From the NCBI GenBank assembly GCA_907163375.1, contig CAJQUW010008970.1:24807-88806 (forward strand): a stretch of 64,000 nucleotides of DNA. Reading direction: 5' to 3'. This document shows, piece by piece, positions 1 to 30,546 of this stretch (its first letter is position 1; every line of letters begins with the position of its first letter). Both the position numbers and the translations under genes were made by a program. A model generated the notes under the pieces. That model was not told the DNA's origin and searched no databases. It saw nothing but the letters and a program-made list of their open reading frames with translations. The stretch is from Prostheceraeus crozeri (Eukaryota > Platyhelminthes > Polycladida > Euryleptidae).

Positions 1-3000
1 ATGGAGAGGGTTAAGCAGGAGCTGATAGCGTTTATTGATGCAGTGACTATCCAAAGTTCAGGGATGATTCTTCAAAAGATTTTGGGGATGGAAGTTCGTC
101 TGAGCCGTTCTGCCCGTGATCAACGACGTGCAGGATCATTGGTTCCTATTCCTCCATTATTGAAGAAGGTGCGGAGTATTCGCCTGTTTGATTATAGAAC
201 AGTGACGGATGCGAACTATTGTTTTCAAGATGCGGTGTTATATGCATTGGCTCACCAAGATAATGTATATACGGGGACGTGTGTACGTGTGGTGCGACAA
301 TTGCAATTGAATGATCGGTATAAATTGGATTTTTCAGGGATGAGTGATGAGGGTCTTTACCCCCTCAAGGACCTGAAACAATTTGAACAGCGAAACAATA
401 TAGTATTACGGATTTACGTTCATAATGGGAAGGGTTTCAAGGGCACACTTTACGATCATGATTGGGCATGTAATGAGACGACGCGCATTATTCATCTAAT
501 ACTACTGACAGACATTGAAGATGAGGAGCATGTGGGACTCGACTGCCATTTTATACCCATTATTAAATTCCAGAGCTTTATTCATAACTGTTTTGATATG
601 ACACATAGTAAAGGTTATCACCGCTACCTCTCATGTGAACTGTGTTTATCAGTGTTTTCATATGGTGGATATACATCAGCACCAGATCATATTTACCAGG
701 AACGAGATGAGCATCAGAAGACGTGTACAGGTGGGAAAACGCAAGTGGAAATGATGCCAGAAGAGTTTGAGTTAAAATTCAAGGACTTTGGCAAGACAAC
801 ACACCCATTATGTGTTGTTTATGCTGATATAGAAAGTATTATTCATCCCATCACAAAAATTCATACAGCAGCCGTGATTGGTCATTACGTCAAATGGGAT
901 GATTCGTTGGACATGCCGCCAGAGACGGTGGAGCAGCATTGGGGTGAAGACTGTGTAACAACTTTTCTTGATCGGATGGAAGCACTTATCTACCGTGTAC
1001 ATCACGTCATCGATGGGTTGGCTCGTAAGAGAATGGTGATGACAGTAGCAGATCGTCAGGTGTATGCTAATACTCATGAATGTAACATGTGTAAACGTCA
1101 TGTGCGGGAGCAAAAGGAGGATGAAGCGAACAACCATCAGATGATGGAACATACAAAATGTCGTGACCACGATCATTTGACAGGGAAGTTTATACAAGTA
1201 CTGTGTCATGCCTGCAATTTTCGACGACGTCAGGTCCGACGTCATATCCCTATATTTTTTCATAATTGGAAGGGGTATGATAGTCATCAGATTATCTTAC
1301 ATGGCCTGGTGAAACGTGATGAGAATATGTGGTGGATCAGCCCCTGCTACACGAGTGGAGATAAGACGGTGGGTGTGTCAGCAAGCTATAAGGTCTATGG
1401 GAATTATAAGGACAACATTCAATTGCAGTTTCGAGATTCGTTTCAATTTCTGTCAAGTTCCTTACATAAACTGAGTTTAACAGTGGAGCGCCTTCCAGTG
1501 TCGGATCGAATACTAAGTGAGTGTTACCCTACAATGGATCATTCCAATATTCGCAAAGGTGTCTTCCCTTATACATACTTTGATGACTGGTCTAGGTTGG
1601 ATGAAACACGTCTCCCTCCCATTGACAAGTTTTATAATGATTTGGCAGAACAGCCATGTTCGGAGGAAGATTATGCAGTGGCGCATCGAGCTTGGCGTGA
1701 ATTGGGATGTCAGACATTTCGAGACTATGTTAGTTATTATCTCTTGGTCGATGTGACACTGCTAGTGGATATCTTTGAGGATTTTCGGACAAAGATGTTT
1801 GCAGTGTCACATCTAGATCCAGTTCATTATTTTGGGATTCCTGGATTGTCATATTCATTTTTCTTGCTCTATACGAATGTGCGATTGGATCATCTAATGG
1901 AGGCTGAAATGTATAAAATGTTTGAAGATGGTATCAGAGGTGGGATGACTTTTGTCAACAAACATCACGCACAGTATGAGGCAGCCTCGGAAGAGAATGA
2001 TGGAGTGTATACTCATTTGTTTTACATCGACGCTAATAATCTGTATGGGACGGCTATGAGTGCAAAGTTACCCAAGGGGTGTTTTACATGGATTCCTGAC
2101 CGTCAACTGGAATGTATTGATGATGAGTGGATTCTTAACTATGACATTAATGGGTATCAAGGTTGCATTTTTACAGTTGACTTGGAGTATCCAGAAGAGG
2201 TACAGGATCGAAGTATGGATCTTCCATATGCCCCAAACAGTGGTGAGATCAAGGCGGATGAGATGAGTGCGTATATGCATCAGTTGTGGGGGACATTACA
2301 TCAAAAGAAGCCGAAGATGAAAACATCCACCAAGCTCTTCTTAACCCATCATCGGAAAGAGCGGTACACCGTCCATATTGCAGCTCTACAGTATTACGTC
2401 CAGCAGGGGTTACATGTAAGTTATGTACATAAAGGAATAACATTCCACCAAGAGGCGTTTATCCGACCCTATACGGACTATCATACAGCTGAGCGTGCCA
2501 AGAGCACAAATCCAATGGCTCGCAATATGCACAAGTTATGTGTAAATGCATTATTTGGGAAAACAATGGAGGATGTGCGCAAATACGGGAAAACACGGTT
2601 AGTTCGCAAAAAGTCATTATTTATCAAATATACACATCATCCCATGTGTCAAAACTTCTTTGGTATTGGAGATTCAGCTATAGCCGTTCATATCCGACGA
2701 CGTAAAGTGATACTGGACCGTGCTATATATATTGGACAGGCAATACTAGATATCAGCAAGATTCAAATGTACCGCCTCTTAGCTCAGTGGCAGAACAATG
2801 AACATTGTCTCTCGGTAGACTTAATTGGTGGGGATACAGATTCATTTTTTCTTCGTGTAAAGAGCCGAAGCGATCGTGATACAATTCTACGCTCATTCCG
2901 TGATATTCCTAATGTGATAGATCCTGAAGCGCGTGGTGTTTTGGATACGTCCAATTATCCAAAGACGCACCCTCTTTATGATGCCCACAACGCGAATCGT

Positions 3001-3390
3001 CTTGGTTGTTTTAAGGATGAGAGTCTTGGTCGTGAGATTAATGAATTCATTTGTCTTAGCCCAAAACTTTATTCCTATACAATGCGTGATGGTGCACGAG
3101 ACTGTCGTGTAAAAGGTATCAAACAATACAAAAAGCGTGAGCTCTCACACGAGTTGTATAAACAGGTGTATGAAGAGCAAAAGATCCATGCTGTATCCCA
3201 ATTGAATTTAGAATCTACATATCATGTGATGCGCACAAAGCAGCGAAAGAAGGTGGCACTCTCAGGATGGGAAGATAAACGCTATTGGATTTCGGAAAAT
3301 GAAAGCGTCCCATATGGTCATCATCAGATTATAACAGGGGCGATTGTAGATACATTATTAGAAGGTCTTGATGATGATGCAATGCAATGA
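1..3390 (+). CDS. Protein-primed family B DNA polymerase (Polinton PolB)
   Basis: Replicative DNA polymerase, 1,129 residues from the first visible Met. The N-terminal region (about 70-190) precedes a Cys-rich segment near 215-240. A 3'-5' exonuclease domain follows, with Exo I D276-I-E278, Exo II N422-W-K-G-Y-D427 and Exo III Y580-x3-D584, and a CxxC/HDH/CxxC zinc-like insertion at about 360-410. The polymerase domain has motif A D677-A-N-N-L-Y-G, motif B N849-A-L-F-G-K and motif C D945-T-D947-S. This is the order found in protein-primed PolB of Polintons and adintoviruses. No frameshift or stop is visible, so it is potentially functional. The Met sits on the first base of the window, so the true start could lie upstream. 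It is followed 70 bp later by the TBP-like gene on the same strand. Confidence 0.96.
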   Translation: MERVKQELIAFIDAVTIQSSGMILQKILGMEVRLSRSARDQRRAGSLVPIPPLLKKVRSIRLFDYRTVTDANYCFQDAVLYALAHQDNVYTGTCVRVVRQLQLNDRYKLDFSGMSDEGLYPLKDLKQFEQRNNIVLRIYVHNGKGFKGTLYDHDWACNETTRIIHLILLTDIEDEEHVGLDCHFIPIIKFQSFIHNCFDMTHSKGYHRYLSCELCLSVFSYGGYTSAPDHIYQERDEHQKTCTGGKTQVEMMPEEFELKFKDFGKTTHPLCVVYADIESIIHPITKIHTAAVIGHYVKWDDSLDMPPETVEQHWGEDCVTTFLDRMEALIYRVHHVIDGLARKRMVMTVADRQVYANTHECNMCKRHVREQKEDEANNHQMMEHTKCRDHDHLTGKFIQVLCHACNFRRRQVRRHIPIFFHNWKGYDSHQIILHGLVKRDENMWWISPCYTSGDKTVGVSASYKVYGNYKDNIQLQFRDSFQFLSSSLHKLSLTVERLPVSDRILSECYPTMDHSNIRKGVFPYTYFDDWSRLDETRLPPIDKFYNDLAEQPCSEEDYAVAHRAWRELGCQTFRDYVSYYLLVDVTLLVDIFEDFRTKMFAVSHLDPVHYFGIPGLSYSFFLLYTNVRLDHLMEAEMYKMFEDGIRGGMTFVNKHHAQYEAASEENDGVYTHLFYIDANNLYGTAMSAKLPKGCFTWIPDRQLECIDDEWILNYDINGYQGCIFTVDLEYPEEVQDRSMDLPYAPNSGEIKADEMSAYMHQLWGTLHQKKPKMKTSTKLFLTHHRKERYTVHIAALQYYVQQGLHVSYVHKGITFHQEAFIRPYTDYHTAERAKSTNPMARNMHKLCVNALFGKTMEDVRKYGKTRLVRKKSLFIKYTHHPMCQNFFGIGDSAIAVHIRRRKVILDRAIYIGQAILDISKIQMYRLLAQWQNNEHCLSVDLIGGDTDSFFLRVKSRSDRDTILRSFRDIPNVIDPEARGVLDTSNYPKTHPLYDAHNANRLGCFKDESLGREINEFICLSPKLYSYTMRDGARDCRVKGIKQYKKRELSHELYKQVYEEQKIHAVSQLNLESTYHVMRTKQRKKVALSGWEDKRYWISENESVPYGHHQIITGAIVDTLLEGLDDDAMQ

Positions 3391-3460: not shown

Positions 3461-3988
3461 ATGACATCAAAGCTGTGTAATCGTATGGTGGAGATACGTG
3501 CCTCCAGTGACCTACCCTTGGAAGTGATTTATCCAGTGTTGTGTCACCGGGGGTGGTGTCTTCGATTCCGTCAAGCCAAACCTAAACGCATTTACATCAA
3601 ATGGTGGAATACAATCCCTCTTCAACTCTTTCCACGTGGGTGTATACAAGTGATGGGATTGCATGAGATTAGTGTGTATGACAAAGTGTGTGAAAGTCTG
3701 GAGACATTACTAACCAAAGAATGTCACTTACCTGTGACATTAAGTGCACCGGTGGTGAAATCATGTACAGTATTATGTAACTGGAAACGGTATAGAACAT
3801 CAATCCCTTTCCATCATTTGGCCTCGTCAGCCAATGTGATGAATGAGCATGAACTTTTCCCTGGAACATTGGTCCGTCACAATCACCATCACTGTTCATT
3901 GTTTGTGAATGGTAAGGCCATTGTAACGGGTGCTTGCTCTATTGAGGAAGCAGAATCTGTCTTATGGACTATTTTAAATACATTATGA
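3461..3988 (+). CDS. TATA-binding-protein-like (TBP-like) protein
   Basis: A 175-residue protein that I read as a two-repeat TBP fold. In the second half, the block ELFPG (131-135) followed by FVNGKAIVTGA (148-158) and a helix-like EEAESVLWTIL matches the characteristic end of a TBP repeat: E-x-E-L-F-P-G, then a hydrophobic strand, x-G-K-x-V-x-T-G-A, then a helix. Residues 98-121 look like the start of that repeat. The first half is more divergent, with FPRGCIQVMGLHE (57-69) in the equivalent strand-turn position. Its length is close to the conserved TBP core of about 180. It is transcribed after the polymerase and converges with the protease gene 28 bp away. It probably directs transcription from viral promoters, which is inference. 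Confidence in the fold comes mainly from the C-terminal repeat. Confidence 0.72.
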   Translation: MTSKLCNRMVEIRASSDLPLEVIYPVLCHRGWCLRFRQAKPKRIYIKWWNTIPLQLFPRGCIQVMGLHEISVYDKVCESLETLLTKECHLPVTLSAPVVKSCTVLCNWKRYRTSIPFHHLASSANVMNEHELFPGTLVRHNHHHCSLFVNGKAIVTGACSIEEAESVLWTILNTL

Positions 3989-4015: not shown

Positions 4016-4633
4016 CTATTTATTGGAGAGAATGGTAGATACAAGTGTTTTCATATATTTAGCAATGAAACGATCATTATGGGATAGGACAGGGTTAGTG
4101 CCTTGGGTAGGTGGAACATGATAAAATGGGGTTAGTGTCTGGGAAAGGGAAGGGAAATGGGGACGATAATTAAGATAATAGAGACAGTAACCACCACAGT
4201 AAGCTTTTGAGCCTTGAATACATGTATGTAGACGTTTGAGAGGATAGGGTCGTTTTTGTAACCATGAAACTAGATGAGGGTATTGATGAATAGGTTGACC
4301 GTATGAATCAAAGAATTCACAAAGTTGATGTTCCATATCTTGATAATATGCGAGCCAATGTTCGCCTGTTTTATGACGTGGGTCTGAATTGACAATGCAG
4401 CTGTAGGAAGTGGTGGTGTCTGTAGGAGCTTCATTCGCAGCAAACACACCTTTGAAGGGGATGTGGGAGGGTTGGAGGAAGAGTGGGGCCATAGATTGAC
4501 AACTGCATTGTAGGAGACACATGAGACTATCGGTATCATCATCGCAACAACATTGGAGCATATACTGTTGTTGGACATGATCCAACGATTTCATGACTGA
4601 GGTCAATTGGTTTGAGGAGAGCCATTCCACCAT
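4016..4633 (-). CDS. Adenain-like cysteine protease (Ulp1/C5 fold), virion maturation
   Basis: A 205-residue papain-like protease of the adenovirus-proteinase/Ulp1 clan that cleaves capsid and core precursors during virion maturation. The catalytic set is readable: H92 in GEHW, D109 in FFDSYGQ, Q140 (oxyanion) and C146 in YCGGYC. The order H-D-Q-C and the CGxxC signature fit Polinton and adintovirus proteases. The N-terminal about 75 residues are Cys- and Gln-rich and unassigned. The gene lies directly downstream of the capsid gene (13 bp gap). Its probable promoter, CTAAGTTC, overlaps the capsid stop codon. Likely substrates are the basic protein at 6,144-6,830 and the RGG mini-proteins at 25 kb. 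Confidence 0.9.
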   Translation of the reverse strand: MVEWLSSNQLTSVMKSLDHVQQQYMLQCCCDDDTDSLMCLLQCSCQSMAPLFLQPSHIPFKGVFAANEAPTDTTTSYSCIVNSDPRHKTGEHWLAYYQDMEHQLCEFFDSYGQPIHQYPHLVSWLQKRPYPLKRLHTCIQGSKAYCGGYCLYYLNYRPHFPSLSQTLTPFYHVPPTQGTNPVLSHNDRFIAKYMKTLVSTILSNK

Positions 4634-4646
4634 GATGGATAGGAAC

Positions 4647-6025
4647 TTAGACAGATGGGGTTACGTAGTCGCTGGAGATGACAGAGGTATTCGGTCTGAT
4701 GACAAAGCATTCATCCACAAGTGAAAAAATGATGAGATCCAATGCAGTGGTCAAAGGGGTTTGAAATTTAATTTCTAGGGAAAAGTTTAAGTCCCCACGT
4801 GTTCTTTGTTGTTGTCCAATGCGATGATCATGGGTGATATCAAAGGGGATGAGATAGAAATAGTCTTTAAATGTGTCCAGATCAATATTACAGGAGGAAT
4901 TTTTACCATAGATATTCATGGCACGATTGAATTGGGTATAGACTTCACGGAGATGTTTACATTCAATACTCCCACCTGTGATGGTGACACCATTCGATTT
5001 GAGGGTGAGGGAGGATAGTTTATGTCGTTGAAAGATGAGTTTTCGTTTTTCAAAGGTGAGCCAACTATTACTCGGACTAAACCAAAAAATAATAGCTTCG
5101 GTTGGATATTAATAGCGAAATTGTAGACATCCTTCTTCTGCCACCCATCACTCAAATTAATGCGTTGAACAACAATACCATTGTACTTGTAAGCGATATT
5201 TTCCTTTGCTCGACGGGTGGCAACCGCTTTTTGAATGGAATCCATGGGTTGGAGCATGGGCATGTGTAATTTAAAGGAATGAAAAAAGAGTCGGTAATTG
5301 GTAGTGGGGGTGATTGCACCAAAATCACGGAACATGTACTGGGGTTGATTCACTTGAAATTCTACATCCAAAGTGGTACCAGGAGGGAGTGCTTTCTCCT
5401 GTTGAAAGAGATTGCAATGAATGGGGAAATCATATTGACGTCGATATTTCTGTTTACGCCACAATTTAATCTCCTGTTGATTAATTAAATTATTAGCATC
5501 ATCAAATTTTTGTGTTGTTTCCTTCAAAGACCCATTCGCTGCAAAAGCGCCGGGGAGGGTGCGGACGAGAGAGGTGGTGGGGGTATAAAACCCTTGTGTC
5601 ACCAAATGAGTCCCTTTAGCCGTAGCATCATATTGTAACATGTTGATGAGGTAGGCCTTGAGATAATAGAGATCATTACCCCCTTCTACAACTTGTTCAT
5701 TGATGGTAATTTTAACATCTCGAAACATACTGTGGGCTGAATTATTAATGAGAATGACACTCGCTGTATCAACTGTAGTGTTCCAGGTGGCAGCGGCAGA
5801 ATCATAGGATTGAATGGAGACGTCTACCGTGCAGTAGGCATTGGCAACATCCATCCAATAGAGATCAGAGGGTTTCAATGAGAAATGGATGGTATCACAT
5901 GCATCCAAAGCATTGATTGGAGCCACCAAATTGACAAAGGTGGAACGACTGGAGACGTCCACTCCATCCTTTTCAAAGACGTCATATCGAGCATCTAAAT
6001 GTGTTGGGCATGTGGCTGTCGTCAT
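4647..6025 (-). CDS. Major capsid protein (double jelly-roll type), one frame break
   Basis: The main shell protein. The first 330 or so residues are in one frame, starting at the ATG at 6,025. The remainder, to the stop at 4,647, is in the -1 frame. The switch falls at a six-A run (5,084-5,089 on the plus strand), as if one base of that run were missing. Readable conserved blocks include a DLYWMDVANAYCTVDVSI-like strand segment near 50, the VILINNSAHSMFRDVKITIN segment near 90-110 and the FPIHCNLFQQEKALPPG segment near 200. These match the Polinton capsid family seen widely in invertebrate genomes. After the switch, a SLEIKF strand ends the protein. A TTTTAAGTAATT late-type motif lies 30-40 bp upstream. 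Either a pseudogene, a programmed frameshift or an assembly error; the heptamer is not a standard slippery site. Confidence 0.82.
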
Positions 6026-6054
6026 GGTGATGAGAAAAGGGTGGGGTGGGGAAT

Positions 6055-6060
6055 TACTTA
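6055..6060 (-). promoter_or_regulatory. Late-type TAAGTA motif, capsid gene
   Basis: Read on the minus strand as TTTTAAGTAATT, about 30-36 bp before the capsid ATG at 6,025. It is one of at least eight identical TAAGTA cores placed just upstream of minus-strand genes in this element. Confidence 0.6.
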
Positions 6061-6830: not shown

Positions 6831-6857
6831 GAATGAGAGTGTGAGTTCATGATGAGT

Positions 6858-6863
6858 TACTTA
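6858..6863 (-). promoter_or_regulatory. Late-type TAAGTA motif, basic virion protein gene
   Basis: GTTTAAGTAACT on the minus strand, about 30 bp before the ATG at 6,830. Same sequence and spacing as the motif before the capsid gene. Confidence 0.6.

Positions 6864-8481: not shown

Positions 8482-8494
<13 letters not shown>
6890..8494 (-). CDS. Large virion protein, C-terminal Polinton fibre/penton-type domain
   Basis: A 534-residue protein that I assign to the virion surface set. The C-terminal 160 residues contain the sequence pattern of Polinton minor structural proteins: a G-I-Y-D-I-P-S-L strand near 380, a hydrophobic strand, then [25 protein letters not shown], ending in a D-D-G-R-P-I-P-F turn. 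The 265-residue protein at 10,719 shows the same pattern. The N-terminal 350 residues match nothing I recognise. The ATG at 8,494 overlaps the end of the collagen gene by 13 bp in the -1 frame, so it may really be the C-terminal part of one protein with that gene. Function (attachment or vertex protein) is inferred. Confidence 0.6.
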
Positions 8495-10650
<2,156 letters not shown>

Positions 10651-10718
10651 TATTGTATTCACAAACTCCTATATCCCATTACCTAAAGAGAAAGAACAAG
10701 AATTTATCAAAATGATGT

Positions 10719-14842: not shown

Positions 14843-15948
14843 TCAATACTGGCGATGGTTACCTAGAGGTTGGATATCACTGTCCTTCACCCATGAGTTC
14901 ATAGAGGATGGATAACCTTGCCAGTGCACGAGATGTTCCCGTTGACCATTACGTGTACGTGTACGTAGAACTTGATCCACTTGATAGATTTCCTCATCCG
15001 TCGCACTACTTGTAATTCCTGTGCATAAAATGCGCCACGAATGGGTTCCCCTGCTAAATCCACGAGAGAGTACATACGTGTCCCATAGGGATCTTTCCGT
15101 ATACTTTGAATACGAAACTCTTCTGTTGACCAATTCGCTTCATACCCCCGCCCAAACGTTCCCTTATCACGAGAGATACGGACTCGTGCCCCCACTTTGA
15201 GGCTACTGTGTGGACGTTGGGGACGTTTCAATTGGGGATAGTTTTGTCGAGCCCGTTTCTGTTGATGTTGAAGGATTGTACCAATATCCTGTGATGTGAC
15301 TTCATTGGGGATTTTCTGGGTTGTGGAATGACGTGTGTTATTATACGCCATCATCACGTCTGGGAGGTAATCAATCCAATTCTGGACATTGGTGGCTGTG
15401 AAAATACGTTCTAATTTATCTTTAATGGTACGATTCAAACGTTCCACATGTGCACATTTATAAGGGCTATAAATAGAGAAATGTTCAATATTCTCCTTCT
15501 TCAATACTTTATCCACCTTGGTATTATAAAATTCACGACCTTGATCCGTTTGGAGACGTTGTGGGGGAGGGATGGTTTTTAACACCTTCTCCAGAATTCC
15601 CGCCACTTCCTCTGCACTTTTCGTTTTCAAAGGGAACGCCCATGCTTTGCGGGAGAAAATATCCATGAACATGAGGATGTATTTATACTGGCGGTTAGAG
15701 GCGGCATACTTCTGATAGTCCACAATATCCGCTTGGAACTGGATGCGTGGGCCACTCACGCGATACGGATGTAGAGGGCGGATACGGTTCCGCTTCTGTC
15801 GATGAAGTGTATATGTTGGCTGGGATTGAAGCCAATGACGGACACGTGTGGGGCTCAGGCCGGATGCAGCAGCTAAAGCAGCGACGGAACCGTACCCAGC
15901 AGGATGCTTGCTGTCGTAGTAGATGGCTTTTAACCTTTCTTCCGCCAT
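14843..15948 (-). CDS. Retroviral-type integrase with C-terminal chromodomain, one frame break
   Basis: Polinton integrase for insertion of the element into the host chromosome. I start it at the ATG at 15,948 (MAEERLK). An N-terminal helix-turn-helix-like segment (19-40) precedes the rve core. The catalytic residues are D74 (QADIVD), D135 (TDQGREF) and E169 (HVERLNR). An SH3-like segment follows (VGARVRISRDKGTFGRGYEANWS, about 255). The frame ends prematurely near 14,995. In the -1 frame the sequence continues as a chromodomain (IYQVDQVLRTRT...HLVHWQGYP...SWV) to the stop at 14,843. The chromodomain is a normal part of Polinton integrases and may guide insertion to particular chromatin. The break is one missing base by inference. 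Confidence 0.9.
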
Positions 15949-16190: not shown

Positions 16191-17360
16191 TCACATCTTT
16201 AACAACCCCACGCCTAGGGCGTGTATTTTCTTTATCAGCCTCACGCGTGCGCGTACGTGTTGCGCGTGTACGTCCACGTGTCGCACCACGACCAACCCCA
16301 GAGGTTGCAGGAGGGGGTGTAGCAGGAGGGGTATGGTTGTTGGAGTGACATGCTCATCACTGTTCTTGCGGTCGGATTTAATCCCCTCTATATGTGGTCG
16401 AGGGAGGGGGGTTAAGGCTGTATTCATACCAAATAGTTTATTACGCAATTGCTGGAAGTGGATTAGTTTGGCGTGCCATGCACGGATCGTTTCCATGCTG
16501 GGTTTTGAGCGAATAATGTCCCGCGCCACTTCTCTTGCATACTGAGGGTAGGGGTGAACCATATCATCTATTTTCTCATTTTCCAACGTATGTTGAAGTA
16601 ACGCTGTTTGAGGATTGGGGGCAACCCCTCCCGTTTGTCCCCCTGCCTGTTTCTCTTCACATGCTCTGTACATGGCAGGGGTCACAACCATCATTTTACT
16701 GAAATCCATCTTGTTTCGGTGGGGGTGTTTCGTTAACTTAAATACAATCATGGGGGGTTCAAATAATTTTGTACGTAAACGGTATTCCATCGGTGTGGTG
16801 GTTGTAAAGTCAACAAACAAGTAGGCGTAGCTACCATACTCTCGCATCAAAGTGGCGAGAATATCATGGATAACATGGGTATTTCCTGCTGGGAGCATGC
16901 GGGATAGGAATTGACTCGTCTGCTGCTGGTTGCGTGGATTGGGGAAAAGGACCATATAGTGGACATTATTATTACGCATCCGCTGCTCCTTATCTCCATA
17001 CAGATATTGGGTAATTTGAATGGCAAAGAAGCCTTTATGATGAGAACCACGTAGAAAAAGGGTGGTGATTCCTTCATGTTTCGCACTCTCCTGTTGCAGA
17101 TCATCCAAAATCACAATATCATTCTGTCCCAATTGATCTAAATCATCGTGCGTAGGGACCCCCAATTTCATCTGAATGTCCAATTCCTTTAATTTATCAT
17201 GAAAAGGACTCTCTATCCCATAAAACCACCATATTTTACGGATGGGGTGTTTAAATAACCCATCTTTATGTTTCAGTAAATTTAAGACAAAGGTGGATTT
17301 CCCTGATTTACTCGGTCCACACACAATCATAGAAGAGTCATTTTCCAGACGAAAGTCCAT
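16191..17360 (-). CDS. DNA-packaging ATPase (FtsK/HerA, poxvirus A32-like)
   Basis: The motor that pumps the genome into the capsid. It has 389 residues. The N-terminus has Walker A G15-P-S-K-S-G-K21-S22-T and Walker B DIVILDD (81-87). The segment TLFLRGSHHKGFFAIQITQYLYG carries the sensor-like motif. The block PNPRN (about 140) is shared with the ATPase of the second viral fragment at 44,404. After residue 220 the sequence leaves the ATPase core; the last 60 residues are basic and Val/Arg-rich, possibly low-complexity. No disruption is seen. Upstream, AATAAAGTATG may be a degenerate late motif. Assignment is firm from the Walker motifs and the related copy. Confidence 0.93.
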   Translation of the reverse strand: MDFRLENDSSMIVCGPSKSGKSTFVLNLLKHKDGLFKHPIRKIWWFYGIESPFHDKLKELDIQMKLGVPTHDDLDQLGQNDIVILDDLQQESAKHEGITTLFLRGSHHKGFFAIQITQYLYGDKEQRMRNNNVHYMVLFPNPRNQQQTSQFLSRMLPAGNTHVIHDILATLMREYGSYAYLFVDFTTTTPMEYRLRTKLFEPPMIVFKLTKHPHRNKMDFSKMMVVTPAMYRACEEKQAGGQTGGVAPNPQTALLQHTLENEKIDDMVHPYPQYAREVARDIIRSKPSMETIRAWHAKLIHFQQLRNKLFGMNTALTPLPRPHIEGIKSDRKNSDEHVTPTTIPLLLHPLLQPLGLVVVRHVDVHAQHVRARVRLIKKIHALGVGLLKM

Positions 17361-17414
17361 GTTTTAAAACAATAAGTCCATGAATCATACTTTATTACGT
17401 AAACACAAAAACAA

Positions 17415-19560: not shown

Positions 19561-19567
19561 TTATATA
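19561..19567 (-). promoter_or_regulatory. Early-type TATATAA box, 705-aa gene
   Basis: CATTATATAAAGG on the minus strand, about 29-35 bp before the ATG at 19,532: classical TATA position. Confidence 0.55.
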
Positions 19568-19865: not shown

Positions 19866-20294
19866 TTATATAGTCGTCTCATCATGATTTACTTGAATAT
19901 CTGTCAAATCAAAATTGGTTGGATCATCATGAAACGCTATGCCATAGGCTTGTGCAAATGGCATTTGTTTTTGTTGAAATCGACGTTTCTTTTTCAGAAA
20001 ACTGTAATAATCAATAGGGGGTCGTACAAATTTGCGTAGAATTGGACCATACACTTTAAAGAATTCCTGCTGCACAGGTGTGAGTTTTTTATTTCCACCA
20101 CCTTTTTGCATCTTCTCCATCAGTTTTCGTAAATCTTCCACATATGCTTTGGGTAATTGGTTGATTCGATGATTAATTGTACGTTTGAAACAGCCTACCC
20201 CCTTCTTCAAATGACCCAATGTATCTTTAAACACTGTTTGTCGTTCTATACACCGTTGACACATGTTTGCTACATTGTGAAAAAATCCCCACAT
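19866..20294 (-). CDS. Unknown basic 142-aa protein, late-type promoter
   Basis: No family recognised. It is Lys/Arg-rich and mostly helical. Two Cys near the start (MCQRC) could bind metal. The central KMQKGGGNKK could be a protease site, although the P4 residue differs from the adenain consensus. FFKVYGPILRKFVRPP precedes an FLKKKRRFQQKQ cluster. The late motif ACTAAGTAA sits immediately before the ATG (AAGTAAATG), so I predict a structural or DNA-packaging role. The stop lies at the TATA box of the membrane-protein gene downstream, so packing is tight. Confidence 0.5.
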   Translation of the reverse strand: MWGFFHNVANMCQRCIERQTVFKDTLGHLKKGVGCFKRTINHRINQLPKAYVEDLRKLMEKMQKGGGNKKLTPVQQEFFKVYGPILRKFVRPPIDYYSFLKKKRRFQQKQMPFAQAYGIAFHDDPTNFDLTDIQVNHDETTI

Positions 20295-21762: not shown

Positions 21763-21887
21763 ATCATTTTACGTAAAGTCATATCTTCGACCATGATTGC
21801 ACTCTTCTCATCCTCTTCTTATTTTGTTCATCATATCGCCCCCAATACCGTCTTCCACGACATACACTCTTTCGTTGACCTCGTTTG

Positions 21888-22195: not shown

Positions 22196-22987
22196 TTACA
22201 CAGATTTTGATTTACATGTAGTGGTGTTAGACCAAGCCATATCATGGAGTTTATGCCATGGTTGGCGGTTTACAAATACTGTTTTTCCTGTAAAGGATTC
22301 ACAATTGTCTTTTGAAATACCAAAGTAATATAACACAATTTCAACACAATCTGCTAAAGAGCAGTGATATCCATGTGCCCATCTATAACGTTGACATTCT
22401 GTATTACTCGATTTCTTCGGTTTTTTATAAAGGTAATGGGTTTGTTTAGGACATACCATCTTTGAACATCCAATAGGTATTTCTTCATCCCGCACTTTTA
22501 CCGCTGCTAAATGGCTTGGTTCCTTTATACGTTGATTCCATTGTTTCAAAAACACATCTATCACATGAAATCTGTTCAAGATCACAGGCTTTAAGAAATT
22601 GAACTCCGCTGTTGATGGACCAGCCATCAGAATATCATATACAGGTCCATGTCGTTGTTCATTAATATGTATGAATTTTTTTAATAATGCTTGTGCATCT
22701 TCATAGCATAATCCTTCATTCATTCGTATCTCTTTACCAACTCCATGAATATATGTCACATCAAATCGTTCATTGTAATAACACAATCCGGAGGATGTAA
22801 TTGGTAATCCAGAAACCGTGTCCGTTACAGAGGGTTGAATCAATACATGAAACGTCTCCACAAATAATATACCCCATGCACGTTCTTGTATCCATAAACA
22901 CGTCACCTCTGCCAAATCCGTATCTCCTTCCGTATCCACCACCAGATAATTGAGGATCACATCACCTAATGGGTGCGTCATTGTCAT
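22196..22987 (-). CDS. DEDDh-type 3'-5' exonuclease-fold protein
   Basis: 263 residues with an RNase-H-like exonuclease pattern. Motif I is D18-T-E20 in LVVDTEGD, the second acidic/amide motif lies around AEFNFLK (128-133), and motif III H208-x4-D213 is in HCSLADC. These are the DEDDh positions seen in TREX/DnaQ-type nucleases. A Cys/His cluster (EC at 198-199, H205, C209, C214) overlaps motif III and could bind zinc. That combination recalls the Maelstrom domain of the animal piRNA pathway, but I cannot confirm it. The TATATAAGTTG box 30 bp upstream indicates the TATA class. Likely roles are DNA processing or acting on host nucleic acid sensing or silencing; both are inference. Confidence 0.6.
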   Translation of the reverse strand: MTMTHPLGDVILNYLVVDTEGDTDLAEVTCLWIQERAWGILFVETFHVLIQPSVTDTVSGLPITSSGLCYYNERFDVTYIHGVGKEIRMNEGLCYEDAQALLKKFIHINEQRHGPVYDILMAGPSTAEFNFLKPVILNRFHVIDVFLKQWNQRIKEPSHLAAVKVRDEEIPIGCSKMVCPKQTHYLYKKPKKSSNTECQRYRWAHGYHCSLADCVEIVLYYFGISKDNCESFTGKTVFVNRQPWHKLHDMAWSNTTTCKSKSV

Positions 22988-23015: not shown

Positions 23016-23024
23016 CTTATATAT
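23016..23024 (-). promoter_or_regulatory. TATATAAG box, exonuclease gene
   Basis: GATATATAAGTTG on the minus strand, about 30 bp before the ATG at 22,987. Confidence 0.55.
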
Positions 23025-23049: not shown

Positions 23050-23484
23050 TTATGCACGGAAGACAACAACCGTTTGATGTATATCCATAGAACACCATGG
23101 GCATTGTAGCAACCAATTTGTTTCATAACATTCTTTACACACTATACAATGTCCACATGGAATAAATAATATTAACAACTCACTTATACGACACATAATA
23201 CATCGTATTTCCCGAAGTAATGTACGTGTCTCCTTTTCCAATCGTACTCTTTCCTCACGTGCCTCAATGGATGGGTACATGGTTACAGTCTCACCCATCT
23301 TACACGTAATAGATCCAAATGTTACCTTCTTCACTTTTTTAACTGGAATCCCTTCTTCATAATCCAATAAACGTTCTATTAATGCACCTGCACTAATCTT
23401 CTCTTCACAATGTGTTACAATTTTAATCACTTCTTCTGAATACCCCAATTCTAATGCCACACACCACGCTGTTGGTAAAGACAT
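23050..23484 (-). CDS. UBA-RING E3 ligase-like protein (IAP-type RING, no BIR)
   Basis: 144 residues from the ATG at 23,484; an upstream in-frame Met is rejected because the TATA box lies between them. Residues 6-45 form a UBA-like helical domain (VALELGYSEEVIKIV...LIERLLDYEEG). The C-terminus is a RING of the type found in inhibitor-of-apoptosis proteins: C95-x2-C98, C110-G-H112, C116-x2-C119, C128-x2-C131, ending in a short hydrophobic strand. There is no BIR domain. Known UBA-RING proteins ubiquitinate targets; a role in blocking host cell death or immunity is inference. A diverged relative with a frame break lies in the second viral fragment at 41,716. Confidence 0.85.
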   Translation of the reverse strand: MSLPTAWCVALELGYSEEVIKIVTHCEEKISAGALIERLLDYEEGIPVKKVKKVTFGSITCKMGETVTMYPSIEAREERVRLEKETRTLLREIRCIMCRISELLILFIPCGHCIVCKECYETNWLLQCPWCSMDIHQTVVVFRA

Positions 23485-23513: not shown

Positions 23514-23520
23514 TTATATA
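23514..23520 (-). promoter_or_regulatory. TATATAA box, UBA-RING gene
   Basis: CTCTATATAAGGGG on the minus strand, 30-36 bp before the ATG at 23,484. It decides the start codon, because the longer reading frame would place the box inside the coding region. Confidence 0.6.
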
Positions 23521-24667: not shown

Positions 24668-24937
24668 TCAATCATGATCTGTACGACTTATATAGGGTTT
24701 TGGCTGATTCATCTCATACACTGTATATTGTAAATGGCCTTTTACATCACCCACGTGTCTCGGTTGTAATTCTCGTTGTGCTTGACGGTAAACACTCTCC
24801 GACACAGTCATTGTACATCGTGTCTCTCCTTCTAATGCATTATCCAACACCTGATAGACTTCCTCCATAGTAGTTTTTACACCTCCCACGGGGAAAAGGG
24901 ATTGAAAATAATCCTCAGACATATCACTCCACTCCAT
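24668..24937 (-). CDS. Unknown 89-aa protein, late-type promoter
   Basis: No family recognised. Mildly acidic N-terminus (MEWSDMSEDYFQSLFP), a central helix (EEVYQVLDNALEGE) and a polar C-terminus. It ends 8 bp before the next gene's ATG; the next gene's TATA box (24,688-24,694) lies within its 3' coding end. The strong late motif GATTATAAGTAAAG about 30 bp upstream groups it with the capsid and core genes, so a minor virion component is the best guess. Confidence 0.5.
   Translation of the reverse strand: MEWSDMSEDYFQSLFPVGGVKTTMEEVYQVLDNALEGETRCTMTVSESVYRQAQRELQPRHVGDVKGHLQYTVYEMNQPKPYISRTDHD
24688..24694 (-). promoter_or_regulatory. TATATAAG box, 366-aa gene
   Basis: CCCTATATAAGTC on the minus strand, 29-35 bp before the ATG at 24,659, inside the 3' end of the preceding gene. 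Confidence 0.55.
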
Positions 24938-24965
24938 TATAATACTCTTGATCCTCCTCCTTCTT

Positions 24966-24971
24966 TACTTA
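24966..24971 (-). promoter_or_regulatory. TATAAGTA motif, 89-aa gene
   Basis: GGATTATAAGTAAAG on the minus strand, about 30 bp before the ATG at 24,937. Confidence 0.6.
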
Positions 24972-26483: not shown

Positions 26484-26491
26484 TTTATATA
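26484..26491 (-). promoter_or_regulatory. TATATAAA box, 161-aa gene
   Basis: GGTATATAAACG on the minus strand, about 49-56 bp before the ATG at 26,435. Confidence 0.5.
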
Positions 26492-26803: not shown

Positions 26804-26810
26804 TTATATA
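26804..26810 (-). promoter_or_regulatory. TATATAAG box, 79-aa basic protein
   Basis: TGTATATAAGAG on the minus strand, 33-39 bp before the ATG at 26,771. It argues against using the more upstream start codons. Confidence 0.5.
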
Positions 26811-26856
26811 CACATCTTAGAGGACCCGGTCCCTTCACGGGTCCCTAAAGGGTTCA

Positions 26857-27408
26857 TCACCTCGTTTGTCCACTCGTCCATTCAATGTCACTCAAAGCAC
26901 TAGTATGAATAATCTGAACCCATTCCTTCTTCTCAATATCTAAACGAAATCGTCGTGTTAATTTCGGTCGTTTAAACACTTCTGGAGTATGTCCATATAC
27001 TATTGCCATAGCCTTTGACAAACTCCCATCTGCACACCTGTTGCCTGGTGAACGACGAATACATGTTTCTGTAGGATCCCACGATATAAGCACATCCCCT
27101 TCATACATTGGAATATAATCACGTTCAAAATAAAGACATTCTTTCGGTTTCTCCACCGTTGTTGTAATCGGATAATGATATGTCGGTGTTACTCCAAAAT
27201 AGAATGTGTCAATATGTGTTGGGATTAGTTCATTTTCCAATTCTATCTTACGACGAGATATCACTACACAGTTGTCTGTCTCTGAAATTATCTTGTCTCC
27301 ATGAAATAATGGAATGGTACGGTGATATTGCCAAAATTTACCCTTCCAATGACGTATAGGATAACGCACCTCACACTCTGGAATCACACACTCTGGAATC
27401 TCACTCAT
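26857..27408 (-). CDS. Unknown protein, duplicated-domain family, copy A (183 aa)
   Basis: Starts at the ATG at 27,408, about 37 bp after a TATAAATA box. It is a clear paralogue of the next gene: shared blocks are R-x-IPLFxGDxI, x-HIDTFYFxxxPxx, ERDxIPMYEGD and RR-P-G, with a C-terminal W-V/I-Q/R-I-I/M. Within each protein the IPLFHGDKIIS segment (about 29) and IPMYEGDVLIS segment (about 96) look like two copies of one domain. No family recognised and no enzyme motif seen. It has a beta-rich look with regular aromatic spacing. Accessory position and TATA promoter suggest an early host-interaction role, which is inference. Confidence 0.6.
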   Translation of the reverse strand: MSEIPECVIPECEVRYPIRHWKGKFWQYHRTIPLFHGDKIISETDNCVVISRRKIELENELIPTHIDTFYFGVTPTYHYPITTTVEKPKECLYFERDYIPMYEGDVLISWDPTETCIRRSPGNRCADGSLSKAMAIVYGHTPEVFKRPKLTRRFRLDIEKKEWVQIIHTSALSDIEWTSGQTR

Positions 27409-27442: not shown

Positions 27443-27450
27443 TATTTATA
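27443..27450 (-). promoter_or_regulatory. TATAAATA box, duplicated-family gene A
   Basis: GGGTATAAATAGGG on the minus strand, about 35-43 bp before the ATG at 27,408. Confidence 0.5.
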
Positions 27451-27532: not shown

Positions 27533-27582
27533 TTCAAAATGGTACAAAAAAGTTCATTCAAAATGGTACAAAAAAGTTCATT
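27533..27582. repeat. 24-bp direct repeat at the 3' end of duplicated-family gene B
   Basis: TTCAAAATGGTACAAAAAAG followed by TTCA, twice in tandem, running into the stop codon at 27,578. Same position relative to its gene as the repeat at 25,912, but different sequence. Confidence 0.75.
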
Positions 27583-28135
27583 CATCATTCAATAACTGTT
27601 CATTTATTCCATGAAATGTCTTATAACCCTCACTCTCTTCTTCAACGTCTTTGTAGTATCCAATCGCCATGATACGTATCCATTCTCCCGCCGCTCCATC
27701 CAGACAGAATCGTTCCGTCTCGTAAGGTGGGTCCATGATTGGCTCCTCATGTGGTTGTTCAAGCACACACGCCTCCATCCACCTTCCATCATCCACCCAC
27801 CCTGGTGCACGACGCACAATCGTTCTTGTAGGGGTGTACCCCAGAATTATATCCCCTTCATACATGGGAATATCACCTCGTTCCATGTAGAGTGGCTTCT
27901 CCGGTGGGTAGTTTTTACTTCTGAACACTCGAAATACAGGTGATTTTGTGAAGTAAAATGTATCAATCCTTGGTGGAAATACATGCGTCTCTGTCCGTAC
28001 CACCAGACATGTCTTCCTATCTGATAGGATCTGATCCCCAGCAAAAAGGGGAATATCTCTATATACCAATTTGGGTACTTGATCCCGAAGTAATGGGAAG
28101 AATATAGTCGATGTTTCTGTTCCTGCTACTTCCAT
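27578..28135 (-). CDS. Unknown protein, duplicated-domain family, copy B (185 aa)
   Basis: Paralogue of the gene at 26,857, sharing DIPLFAGDQILS, RIDTFYF, ERGDIPMYEGD and a C-terminal EWIRIM. It carries the same internal duplication (about residues 27 and 94). It differs by a shorter N-terminus and an acidic C-terminal tail (DVEEESEGYK). The two copies are diverged, so the duplication is old. TATATATAAG lies 57-65 bp upstream. It is the last viral gene before the palindrome. Function unknown. Confidence 0.6.
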   Translation of the reverse strand: MEVAGTETSTIFFPLLRDQVPKLVYRDIPLFAGDQILSDRKTCLVVRTETHVFPPRIDTFYFTKSPVFRVFRSKNYPPEKPLYMERGDIPMYEGDIILGYTPTRTIVRRAPGWVDDGRWMEACVLEQPHEEPIMDPPYETERFCLDGAAGEWIRIMAIGYYKDVEEESEGYKTFHGINEQLLNDE

Positions 28136-28191: not shown

Positions 28192-28199
28192 TTATATAT
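28192..28199 (-). promoter_or_regulatory. TATATATAAG box, duplicated-family gene B
   Basis: AATATATATAAGAAGG on the minus strand, 57-64 bp before the ATG at 28,135; a GGGACCCG block lies just beyond it. Confidence 0.5.
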
Positions 28200-28235
28200 A
28201 TTCTCTGAAGGGACCCGAACCCTACGGGGGACCTG

Positions 28236-28412
28236 ACTTAGTGTCATAGTAGAATTCAAATCTACAGTACTATAGTTTTTTCGCGCCACGGGTCCCCTGG
28301 TTGGTAACGGGACCCGTGACCTTGGACACGGTCCCGTTGCTAAGCAACCAGGGGACCCGTGGCGCGAAAAAACTATAGTACTGTAGATTTGAATTCTACT
28401 ATGACACTAAGT
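28236..28412. repeat. Perfect 68-bp-arm inverted repeat (palindrome), 41-bp spacer
   Basis: The arms 28,236-28,303 and 28,345-28,412 are exact reverse complements. The spacer itself is largely self-complementary (CAACGGGACC/GGTCCCGTTG). The inner half carries CGCGCCACGGGTCCCCTGG, matching the GGGACC blocks of the viral element. TACAGTACTATAG inside each arm resembles a TA-flanked CAGT transposon end. The Tigger transposase frame stops inside the right arm. It may be a MITE, fused terminal repeats of the virus, or a foldback formed during replication. Confidence 0.9.
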
Positions 28413-30546
28413 GACACTACTTTTGTACACTTAAACCATTCGCACATTGATAGTCTGTATGGTTCATTGCAGACCTTACATAAACTTTCTGATCCAACTA
28501 ACTGTTTATTTGTTTCTTCACGCTTCTTTTTGGTCATTCTTGACGTTGTGGGAATGTTTTCATCTTTTTTATCAGTCAAAACAGATGCTCTTAATCTTTT
28601 CTTTGTCTTTTTGGGGGGCTGGTCGCATCGAGGATATGGTTTAATATCTTCTGGTCTAGCAGAAACATTCTCGTTTTGCTCAGTCGAGGGTTGCTCCAAT
28701 GCTACAGTTGTTGTCTGATTGGGCTGTTCAGTAGGTTGCTCCAATTCCACTGACGGCTGATCGACTCTTTCAGAGGGTTGTCCTACATGTAACTCCGCGG
28801 ACTGCTGATCGGATTGCTCAGTCGATTGTGCGGTCACTGTTGAAGGTAAGTACTCGTCATCGCCGAATACCATAGAGTCCAAGGGGTATATCCCTGTTGA
28901 TTTGAACCCCTTCTGTGCGATTTCTACCGTTGCTGCTCGTCCATATGCCTTTGAAATCAGACTGCTGACCTGGAATTGACTGATGCATCTACCGGGGTGG
29001 CTCGTCATCAGTTATCGCAAGCACGATTATAGTATCTTTTAAATGGCCCGAAAAAACAGCGATCTAGTGGTTGCATACGGTGGCTTGAATGTGGAGGCAG
29101 GGTGAGAAGATGAATATGGTTGGCACGACAGAACTCTATGCCTTGCAAAGAAAGGTGAGAAACATGATTGTCCATAATAAGTAAGACAGGTTGACTAGAA
29201 GTCGGATGAGCATGTCGGTGAAAGTGTTGCAAATACTCCGGGAATAGTTCTGAACACATGTATCCCGAGTCACTGCACAACACCAGCGATCCAAGGGGTG
29301 CACCGTCAGTTAACTCGGGTTTCGAGCGCTTACATCGAAAAATAATTACAGGTGGAATGAAGTTGCCCGCCGCGTTCATCGAACAAACAAGGGTTGTGGT
29401 AACTCCTCTTTCTCCTGATACGACTTTGTTCACCGACTTCTTTCCTTTCTGGGACACGACCTTCGGCAATCGGTTTGGTACCGTTGAAACACCGGTTTCA
29501 TCCATGTTGTATATTTGATGAGGTCCGAAGTTATGTTGATCCATCAACTTTTGGAGTAGATCATAAAATACCTCACAATTCTCTCTCGAGAATGCTGAAG
29601 TACGAGCTGCACTTATAGGTTCTGGTGAGCGTAGAGATAAACTTCCGTTTCTTTTTAAGTAACCTTGCGCCCAATCCACACCTGCAAGTTTCCGCTCTTT
29701 ATCAAATGGATGATCTTTATTCTTCATTTCGGCCATTTCGAATGCGATGGATCTCAAGGTCTTCATAGTTATTCCATGACACAACTGATCCATTCGAACA
29801 CAGTAAGCGTGAAGCTGCTGCTCCTCTTCTTTGGTGAAGACTGTTTTGTGCCCGCCCGAAGATGGAGCTTCATTCTACAAAGATAAAACGCTTCTTAGAT
29901 TTCTGCATTTCACTAAATGATTTGGTCACAACCGTAGCATTACACAAGTTACCCATATCACAAGTTAGGTAGGGCGACGCTTACGTATAATACGAGTTGA
30001 TGCGCTAGCCTTCGTGACTATTATTCAGTAGGCAACCTATAAATACATGTTAATGTGGTACTATCATAGGCCTATGTACATATCTACATAAGTCTAATTA
30101 ATGATTTAGGATTACACCACTCTAGAAATGTTTCAGCTATAAACCAATATTACCTTGCCGCTTGAAATGTATCTATATAAAATAGAATAAGCTATTTTAG
30201 CAGCAAGACTTGCTTTTGTACATATCAATTTCTACATCATGTTATCAAGAATAATGCTGTAGCATATCAAGGAAAAATGCGACTTGTGTAAAAATATGAA
30301 CGAGATTAAAACCGAATCAGCTATGATCCTCACAAAGCTTTGTTAAAACGTTCAAGTAATAAAAACGGCCCAGTTTCGACCGTCGATACTTACCTTTTTC
30401 AAATAATTCCGTATAGTTTTCTCCGAAACACCGTAGATTACCGCCAAAGATCGACGGGATTCACCCTCATTGACTCGACGGTGTATCTCTGCTCTTTCAG
30501 TTTCTGTCAGTATCTTTCTTTCTGTCTTCCTCTTGTAATTCCTCAT
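28373..30546 (-). pseudogene. Tigger/pogo-type transposase, two exons, one frame break
   Basis: Tc1/mariner-superfamily transposase of the pogo/Tigger/Jerky group. Exon 1 (30,394-30,546) encodes a psq helix-turn-helix (MRNYKRKT...SEKTIRNYLKK) and ends at a GTAAGT donor. The intron is 29,875-30,393. Exon 2 begins at 29,874 in the same phase, with a CENP-B-type HTH followed by the DDE domain: YNMDETGV, LLIMDNHVSH and a later acidic position near RMQPLDR. A stop at 29,008 with a -1 offset separates the main part from the C-terminal part (HPGRCIS...GFKSTGIYPLD). The tail has PSVELEQPTEQPNQ repeats and a Cys-rich end. Without that shift the gene would be complete, so it is young or the break is an assembly error. 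Confidence 0.85.

Follow-up and report, generated by a model that had tools for sequence, protein, structure and literature searches.

We found that a Polinton/Maverick element in the genome of the polyclad flatworm Prostheceraeus crozeri carries a gene for a protein with the TATA-binding protein (TBP) fold next to its DNA polymerase B (PolB) gene, and that two mutually exclusive promoter-like motifs lie at similar distances upstream of the ATG of its genes. The presence of an own TBP, together with a TATA-like signal before several packaging-side genes that differs from that before the other genes, suggests a private early-to-late gene switch. The window, which is the whole stretch of DNA analysed, comprises 64,000 nucleotides of contig CAJQUW010008970.1. 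Since inverted repeats of about 215 bp (98% identical, beginning AGTAGTG) are flanked on both sides by TTTGTA, the length of the element was estimated to be about 29.4 kb. Its features are as follows.

about -982 to -768, outside the window (in stretch L009): left terminal inverted repeat
1..3390, plus strand: PolB (PF03175, Pfam E 9.1e-16), with the ORF start upstream of the window
3461..3988, plus strand: TBP gene of the Polinton (175 aa) with two TBP repeats
4016..4633, minus strand: adenain-like cysteine protease, tail-to-tail with the TBP gene
4916..6025, minus strand: packaging-side gene o4916, with relatives in Polinton families C and D and in L026 (20-25% identity)
8482..10650, minus strand: packaging-side collagen-repeat protein o8482 (PF01391, E 2e-36; long repeat)
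14899..15948, minus strand: rve integrase (Pfam E 1.2e-12)
16191..17360, minus strand: A32-like packaging ATPase (Pox_A32 E 0.013, under the Pfam cut-off), with relatives in other Polinton families
22196..22987, minus strand: ORF o22196, resembling an exonuclease by eye only, downstream of a TATATAA-type promoter
23050..23484, minus strand: RING-finger protein (Pfam E 1.5e-7)
28208..28421, no strand: right terminal inverted repeat, pairing with the left copy in L009
28422..28427: 6-bp target site duplication TTTGTA, the same 6 bp being found left of the left terminus

The Polinton/Maverick traits found were terminal inverted repeats with AG...CT ends and a 6-bp target duplication, PolB and the rve integrase (PF00665), both above the Pfam cut-off, and the adenain-like protease. 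A zinc-finger-like ORF (by eye), PolB and the TBP gene occupy the plus strand of the left end, and the other listed genes are on the minus strand. PolB had no PDB match at E 0.01. The protease was similar to the S273R protease (E 1.8e-5) and to chains named Protease (E 0.0035) and Adenain (E 0.045), and its match to Pfam C5 was below the cut-off. The ORF o22196 had no Pfam match. The candidate for a double-jelly-roll major capsid protein is o4916, a presumed capsid gene for which the protein search returned no homologue and the single-sequence model was uninformative (pLDDT 29.7). The collagen-repeat protein is a possible fibre, and its gene has TTTAGGTAA upstream.

The 175-aa protein had been predicted from the letters alone to be TBP-like and as long as a bare TBP core. 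It matched PF00352 with 30.8 bits against a curated cut-off of 22.9, and structure prediction gave a confident fold in which two TBP repeats form one saddle, with no sign of a non-TBP fold. The protein is a bare core, as anticipated. Residues were counted in 31 hand-picked non-cellular sequences (the window, 13 genomic ORFs and 17 of 30 proteins), of which L048 and the window are near-identical. The four sites of Phe insertion of cellular TBP read Pro, Phe, Phe and Phe in all 31; in the window protein, the kinking Phe is retained at 57, 133 and 148, and Pro41 replaces the first. Since only three of the four intercalating Phe of a canonical TBP are present, we refer to it as a TBP-fold protein of PF00352 and not as a canonical TBP. 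Glu or Asp occupies both acidic positions of the second stirrup, the TFIIB contacts of human TBP, in all 31 sequences. The Asn of repeat 2 is Ser in the clade of the window and Asn in the other families. It is almost certain that the protein has the TBP fold and is encoded by a stable Polinton gene.

The host genome (2.05 Gb) contains at least 150 places matching PF00352 and at least 150 matching the window protein, 22 of the latter at ≥95% identity and the others at 45-75% among the matches listed. To our own reading, host-like TBP or TBP-related exons account for four places on two contigs among the PF00352 matches listed. A second TBP-like host gene piece in L002, with a stop in one match, is probably a TBP-related factor. 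We read 19 stretches, each at most 10 kb long, that surround 21 PF00352 places; the stretches were chosen by hand for high ranks and unusual lengths and not at random. Polinton genes and a TBP match, broken in some cases, were present in 19 of 19 stretches and PolB in 17 of 19; the PolB of L019 and L027 is a piece of 54-55 residues only. The order of PolB, TBP and protease was kept in all 20 stretches of the window family, one of which is the window itself. Recurrence of the gene beside PolB, to which the original prediction had pointed as support, was thus found in several diverged Polinton families. As far as both genes were sampled, the PolB and TBP trees agreed on three groups in addition to the window, and the PolB of these groups was 32-46% identical to that of the window (pieces of at least 100 residues). 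Since diverged PolB groups are matched by TBP groups, the two genes seem, from their sequences, to have travelled together for long. Scanning a viral contig collection with the TBP protein and with A2 returned no relative. Two of the 10-kb stretches (L025 and L028) each contain a pair of oppositely oriented TBP copies that enclose PolB pieces, which resembles a palindromic or head-to-head element. In family B (L010, L018, L021-L024), there are neighbouring ORFs unmatched by any window protein used as query, and upstream stretches resemble splice acceptors by eye; this family is possibly a Polinton derivative that is reduced or uses splicing.

A tree of 35 rows separated the 31 non-cellular TBPs from the TBPs of the host, E. 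cuniculi and two archaea with full support (100/100). The row of the host TBP consists of two joined exons and stops short of the full end. Broken or partial copies (L010, L014, L021, L023, L024, L026, L027), the second copies in L025 and L028, other copies of the window family and 13 metagenome proteins were omitted before the tree was built. The branch between the two clades is very long, and such long branches limit what can be inferred on the source of the TBP. Identity to the host TBP was 20-31% over aligned parts of 27-148 residues; the TBP of E. cuniculi reached 76% and those of the archaea 42-45%. Among 20 copies of the window family (18 distinct DNA sequences), dN was 0.006 and dS 0.087, giving a ratio of 0.07. 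The ranking of these copies by protein similarity biases the estimate toward low dN, against which it counts that there were no copies between 75% and 95% among the matches listed. Variable columns at codon positions 1, 2 and 3 were 6.9, 2.3 and 26.9% in the 20 copies, and none of the 22 close copies (≥95%) had a stop inside the match. These substitution patterns indicate purifying selection on the Polinton TBP in the family of the window. The ratios of families B (0.43, 5 copies), C (0.74, 4 copies) and D (0.60, 3 copies) look like decay after insertion and give no support to the selection claim.

These results bear on the reading of the gene as a host TBP that was captured or as a domesticated, functionless remnant, such as the recent capture or remnant of a host TBP exon that the original prediction had named as its own refutation. 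TBP-family exons do exist in the host genome (L001-L003). The fully supported split, the low identity to the host TBP, the dN/dS of the window family, the lack of internal stops and the many copies, Polinton-linked in 39 of 39 stretches (19 + 20), argue against it. We rejected the host-exon remnant and, barring artefacts in the tree and in the selection results, give this reading hardly any credence.

Upstream regions were analysed in a set of 25 hand-listed genes, without the left zinc-finger ORF and PolB, and in a second set of 27 ORFs defined by rule. The motif TA[ACG]GTAA was found 33-41 bp before eight genes.

4661..4667, minus strand: TACGTAA, -34 of the protease ATG
6054..6060, minus strand: TAAGTAA (within TTTAAGTAA), -35 of o4916
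6857..6863, minus strand: TAAGTAA, -33 of o6144
10679..10685, minus strand: TAGGTAA, -35 of o8482
14859..14865, minus strand: TAGGTAA, -37 of o14205
17395..17401, minus strand: TACGTAA, -41 of the ATPase
21769..21775, minus strand: TACGTAA, -36 of o21194 (right side)
24965..24971, minus strand: TAAGTAA (within TATAAGTAA), -34 of o24668 (right side)

TATATAA or TATAAATA was found 18-63 bp before nine genes, all on the right side.

19561..19567, minus strand: TATATAA, -35 of o17415
19866..19872, minus strand: TATATAA, -43 of o19572
23017..23023, minus strand: TATATAA, -36 of o22196
23514..23520, minus strand: TATATAA, -36 of the RING gene
24688..24694, minus strand: TATATAA, -35 of o23559
26485..26491, minus strand: TATATAA, -56 of o25950
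26804..26810, minus strand: TATATAA, -18 of o26532
27443..27450, minus strand: TATAAATA, -42 of o26857
28192..28198, minus strand: TATATAA, -63 of o27578

Six of the nine TATA sites lie at -35 to -43 and three are off this spacing (-18, -56, -63). None of the 25 genes had both motifs. When the sides were compared with the TBP gene left out (11 packaging-side and 13 right-side genes), the TATA class was present before 9 of 13 right-side genes and 0 of 11 packaging-side genes (Fisher test, 0.0006). TA[ACG]GTAA preceded 6 of 11 packaging-side genes, being absent from five, and 2 of 13 right-side genes, a difference that was not significant (Fisher test, 0.08). At the left end, GGTATATAAACC lies upstream of the zinc-finger ORF, no TATATAA was seen by eye upstream of PolB, and the region upstream of the TBP gene contains neither TATATAA/TATAAATA nor TA[ACG]GTAA; TTATAAG was seen there by eye.

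The TA[ACG]GTAA motif, which was picked after inspecting the sequences, occurred at -46 to -25 in 8 of 25 genes, whereas random placement gave 0.12 on average and a maximum of 3 in 20,000 draws. In the rule-based set, it was found before 8 of 27 ORFs against 0.29 expected (reached in 0 of 2000 draws), and the sense and antisense windows contained 8 and 2 sites, respectively. Of 14 minus-strand occurrences in the element, eight are those at -33 to -41, one is at -7 of o19866, and the remaining five (21.9-25.9 kb) precede no listed gene. Between 4 and 17.41 kb, all six minus-strand occurrences are at the -33 to -41 type of position; the plus strand has two, one of them due to the palindrome at the ATPase site. 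The longer form TTTA[ACG]GTAA has seven occurrences in the part of the window covered by the element and two in the remainder. The protease TACGTAA is invariant in 20 copies, but the site overlaps coding sequence. De novo search of the 25 upstream regions placed TTTAAGTAA and TATATAAGT among the top 9-mers (7 of 25 each), a count reached by none of 60 shuffles; the 8-mers were matched by 2 of 60. In the 12 left-side genes, the best 9-mer was TTTAGGTAA (5 of 12), reached by 3 of 60 shuffles, and the best 8-mer was reached by 7 of 60. A chance AT-rich match as the origin of the motif was rejected by the placement draws, the rule-based test and the shuffles. GTAA as a splice donor was rejected by reasoning, since about 30 bp to the ATG is too short for an intron, and an upstream stop codon or poly(A) signal was rejected by eye, with one site, that of the ATPase, overlapping AATAAA.

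In family D (L012), the relaxed motif WANGYAA was found before 4 of 9 rule-based genes against 0.51 expected (P 0.0025). It was not significant in the extra part of L011 (1 of 3), family C (1 of 9) and family E (1 of 10), and no such motif was recognised by eye in family B. By eye, TTTAAGCAA-like sites were found in family D and before one gene in E, and TTATGCAAA-like sites in C, for which the promoter reading was made by eye only. The low count of family C despite four TTATGCAAA-like sites is partly due to starts that are apparently misassigned. A serious, though tentative, possibility is that the TBP lineage with Pro for Phe in the first stirrup is a long-held selectivity factor of Polintons that uses private late promoters (TA[ACG]GTAA in this element; TTTAAGCAA- or TTATGCAAA-like in two sister families). 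The TBP and its promoter code would co-change from family to family within one genome, and the factor would work through host TFIIB and Pol II, no other viral partner being seen.

It is likely that the Polinton TBP has a role in transcribing the genes of the element. That it is a late-promoter selectivity factor is, on the sequence evidence, rather probable, and its recognition of TA[ACG]GTAA is slightly favoured. In the switch model, for which we infer the timing, binding and recruitment, the left operon (zinc-finger ORF, PolB and TBP) and the right-side genes would be transcribed first from ordinary TATA boxes by the host TBP. The viral TBP, with Pro for Phe in its first stirrup, would then bind TA[A/C/G]GTAA, often TTTA[ACG]GTAA, 33-41 bp before packaging-side genes. 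The viral TBP, whose second stirrup has both Phe and the acidic TFIIB contacts, would recruit host TFIIB and Pol II and turn on the protease, the ATPase and the presumed structural genes. The original prediction had proposed a non-standard TATA box by analogy with gammaherpesviruses. The TA[ACG]GTAA promoter class supports this part of the proposal, and we infer binding of the motif by the protein and its driving of late transcription. A new transcription system in a Polinton, as then suggested, is plausible.

The protein may instead be a real viral TBP that works on ordinary TATA boxes, boosting all genes of the element or evading host TFIID control, with TA[ACG]GTAA read by something else. 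The three kinking Phe, the TFIIB contacts and the nine TATA sites agree with this reading, but all 31 relatives compared have Pro at the first kinking site, unlike the four cellular TBPs, and a second promoter class with the spacing of TATA boxes calls for a reader. We consider it unlikely. The protein may also block transcription in the host as a dominant-negative or decoy that sequesters TFIIB or promoters, a role for which a bare core that keeps the TFIIB contact residues and has no other domains would be suitable. This reading leaves the second promoter class unexplained and appears very improbable.

A further explanation is that TA[ACG]GTAA is a bZIP site for an activator of the host or the element and that the TBP acts elsewhere. 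Three of the eight sites are the near-palindromic TACGTAA; TTACGTAA resembles PAR/C-EBP type sites, and two sequences noticed by eye in further families, TTAAGCAA and TTATGCAA, are like C/EBP-type half sites. However, the middle position is A or G in five of the eight sites, so that the constant part is the GTAA half only, the distance to the ATG (-33 to -41) is narrow and the same as at six of the nine TATA sites, and the sites prefer the sense windows. A bZIP origin is quite unlikely, and the preferred reading remains that of a motif recognised by the Polinton TBP.

The vTBPs of beta- and gammaherpesviruses (KSHV ORF24, EBV BcRF1, HCMV UL87) are likewise virus-encoded TBP-fold proteins. According to passages of PMC7498053 and PMC12529657, a non-canonical TATA (TATT/TATTWAA) replaces the early-gene TATA in herpesvirus late genes. 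The TA[ACG]GTAA class, recognised by its letters, may be the Polinton counterpart. KSHV ORF24, as described in passages of the same two papers, has 752 aa with Pol II-binding and C-terminal domains and is one of six viral proteins, and it keeps four Phe without the TFIIB-contact acidic residues (PMC12529657). The Polinton TBP is the opposite, having lost one Phe and kept the acidic positions. It is also unlike ORF24, with its extra domains and partner set, in being a bare core: the herpesvirus-type N-terminal Pol II-binding and C-terminal DNA-contact domains are absent from its 175 aa, and Pfam named no partner factor, TFIIB-like or herpesvirus vPIC-like, among the 26 ORFs scanned.

The TBPs of Nucleocytoviricota (HaV01, EsV-1 and the B263R homologue of Abalone asfa-like virus) have the same fold and were among the BFVD matches, with Foldseek identities of 11-14% to the Polinton TBP. 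Many large viruses have genes for an RNA polymerase of their own. In the Polinton, Pfam recognised no RNA polymerase subunit in the 26 scanned ORFs. A TBP has been reported in 59% of mirusvirus genomes (a passage of PMC10132985), and TBP genes lie in mirusvirus-like elements (a passage of PMC10675990). Cellular TBPs, eukaryotic and archaeal, were 17-20% identical to the Polinton TBP in structural alignment, from which it differs by Pro for the first kinking Phe and by its separate deep clade.

With known Polintons/Mavericks and adintoviruses, the element shares PolB, the rve integrase, the adenain-like protease, an ATPase-like ORF, inverted repeats starting with AG and the 6-bp duplication; the TBP gene and the two-class promoter layout go beyond them. 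In literature covered by titles, starts of abstracts and some passages (including PMC12220804), with subscription papers mostly outside, we found no TBP or two-class promoter layout in an animal Polinton, and PMC11071308 has no occurrence of TATA, TBP or transcription. Viral TBPs are already known in herpesviruses, mirusviruses and large DNA viruses, and what appears new against this body of literature is a TBP in a Polinton. Titles and starts of abstracts gave no report on the timing of Polinton genes. Polintons are commonly positioned close to the root of the eukaryotic DNA viruses. If the proposed switch is true, a minimal combination of TBP and motif would parallel the herpesvirus late system in a simple form, viral TBPs would have arisen or survived in elements other than large DNA viruses and herpesviruses, and one genome would offer a natural series of TBP-promoter pairs for studying the evolution of TBP specificity.

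Several minor observations were made at the element ends. The neighbouring minus-strand ORFs o26857 (26857-27408) and o27578 (27578-28135) resemble diverged duplicates by eye, and DDE transposase-like ORFs (by eye; 28373-29793, minus strand) border on and overlap the right Polinton end. GGGACC/GGTCCC repeats, which are possible regulator or replication sites, are clustered at both ends (28208-28421 and 26828-26845 of the window; 9082-9280 of L009), where they lie within the inverted repeats and immediately upstream of end-proximal TATATAA promoters; a further three occur elsewhere in the element and eight in the rest of the window.
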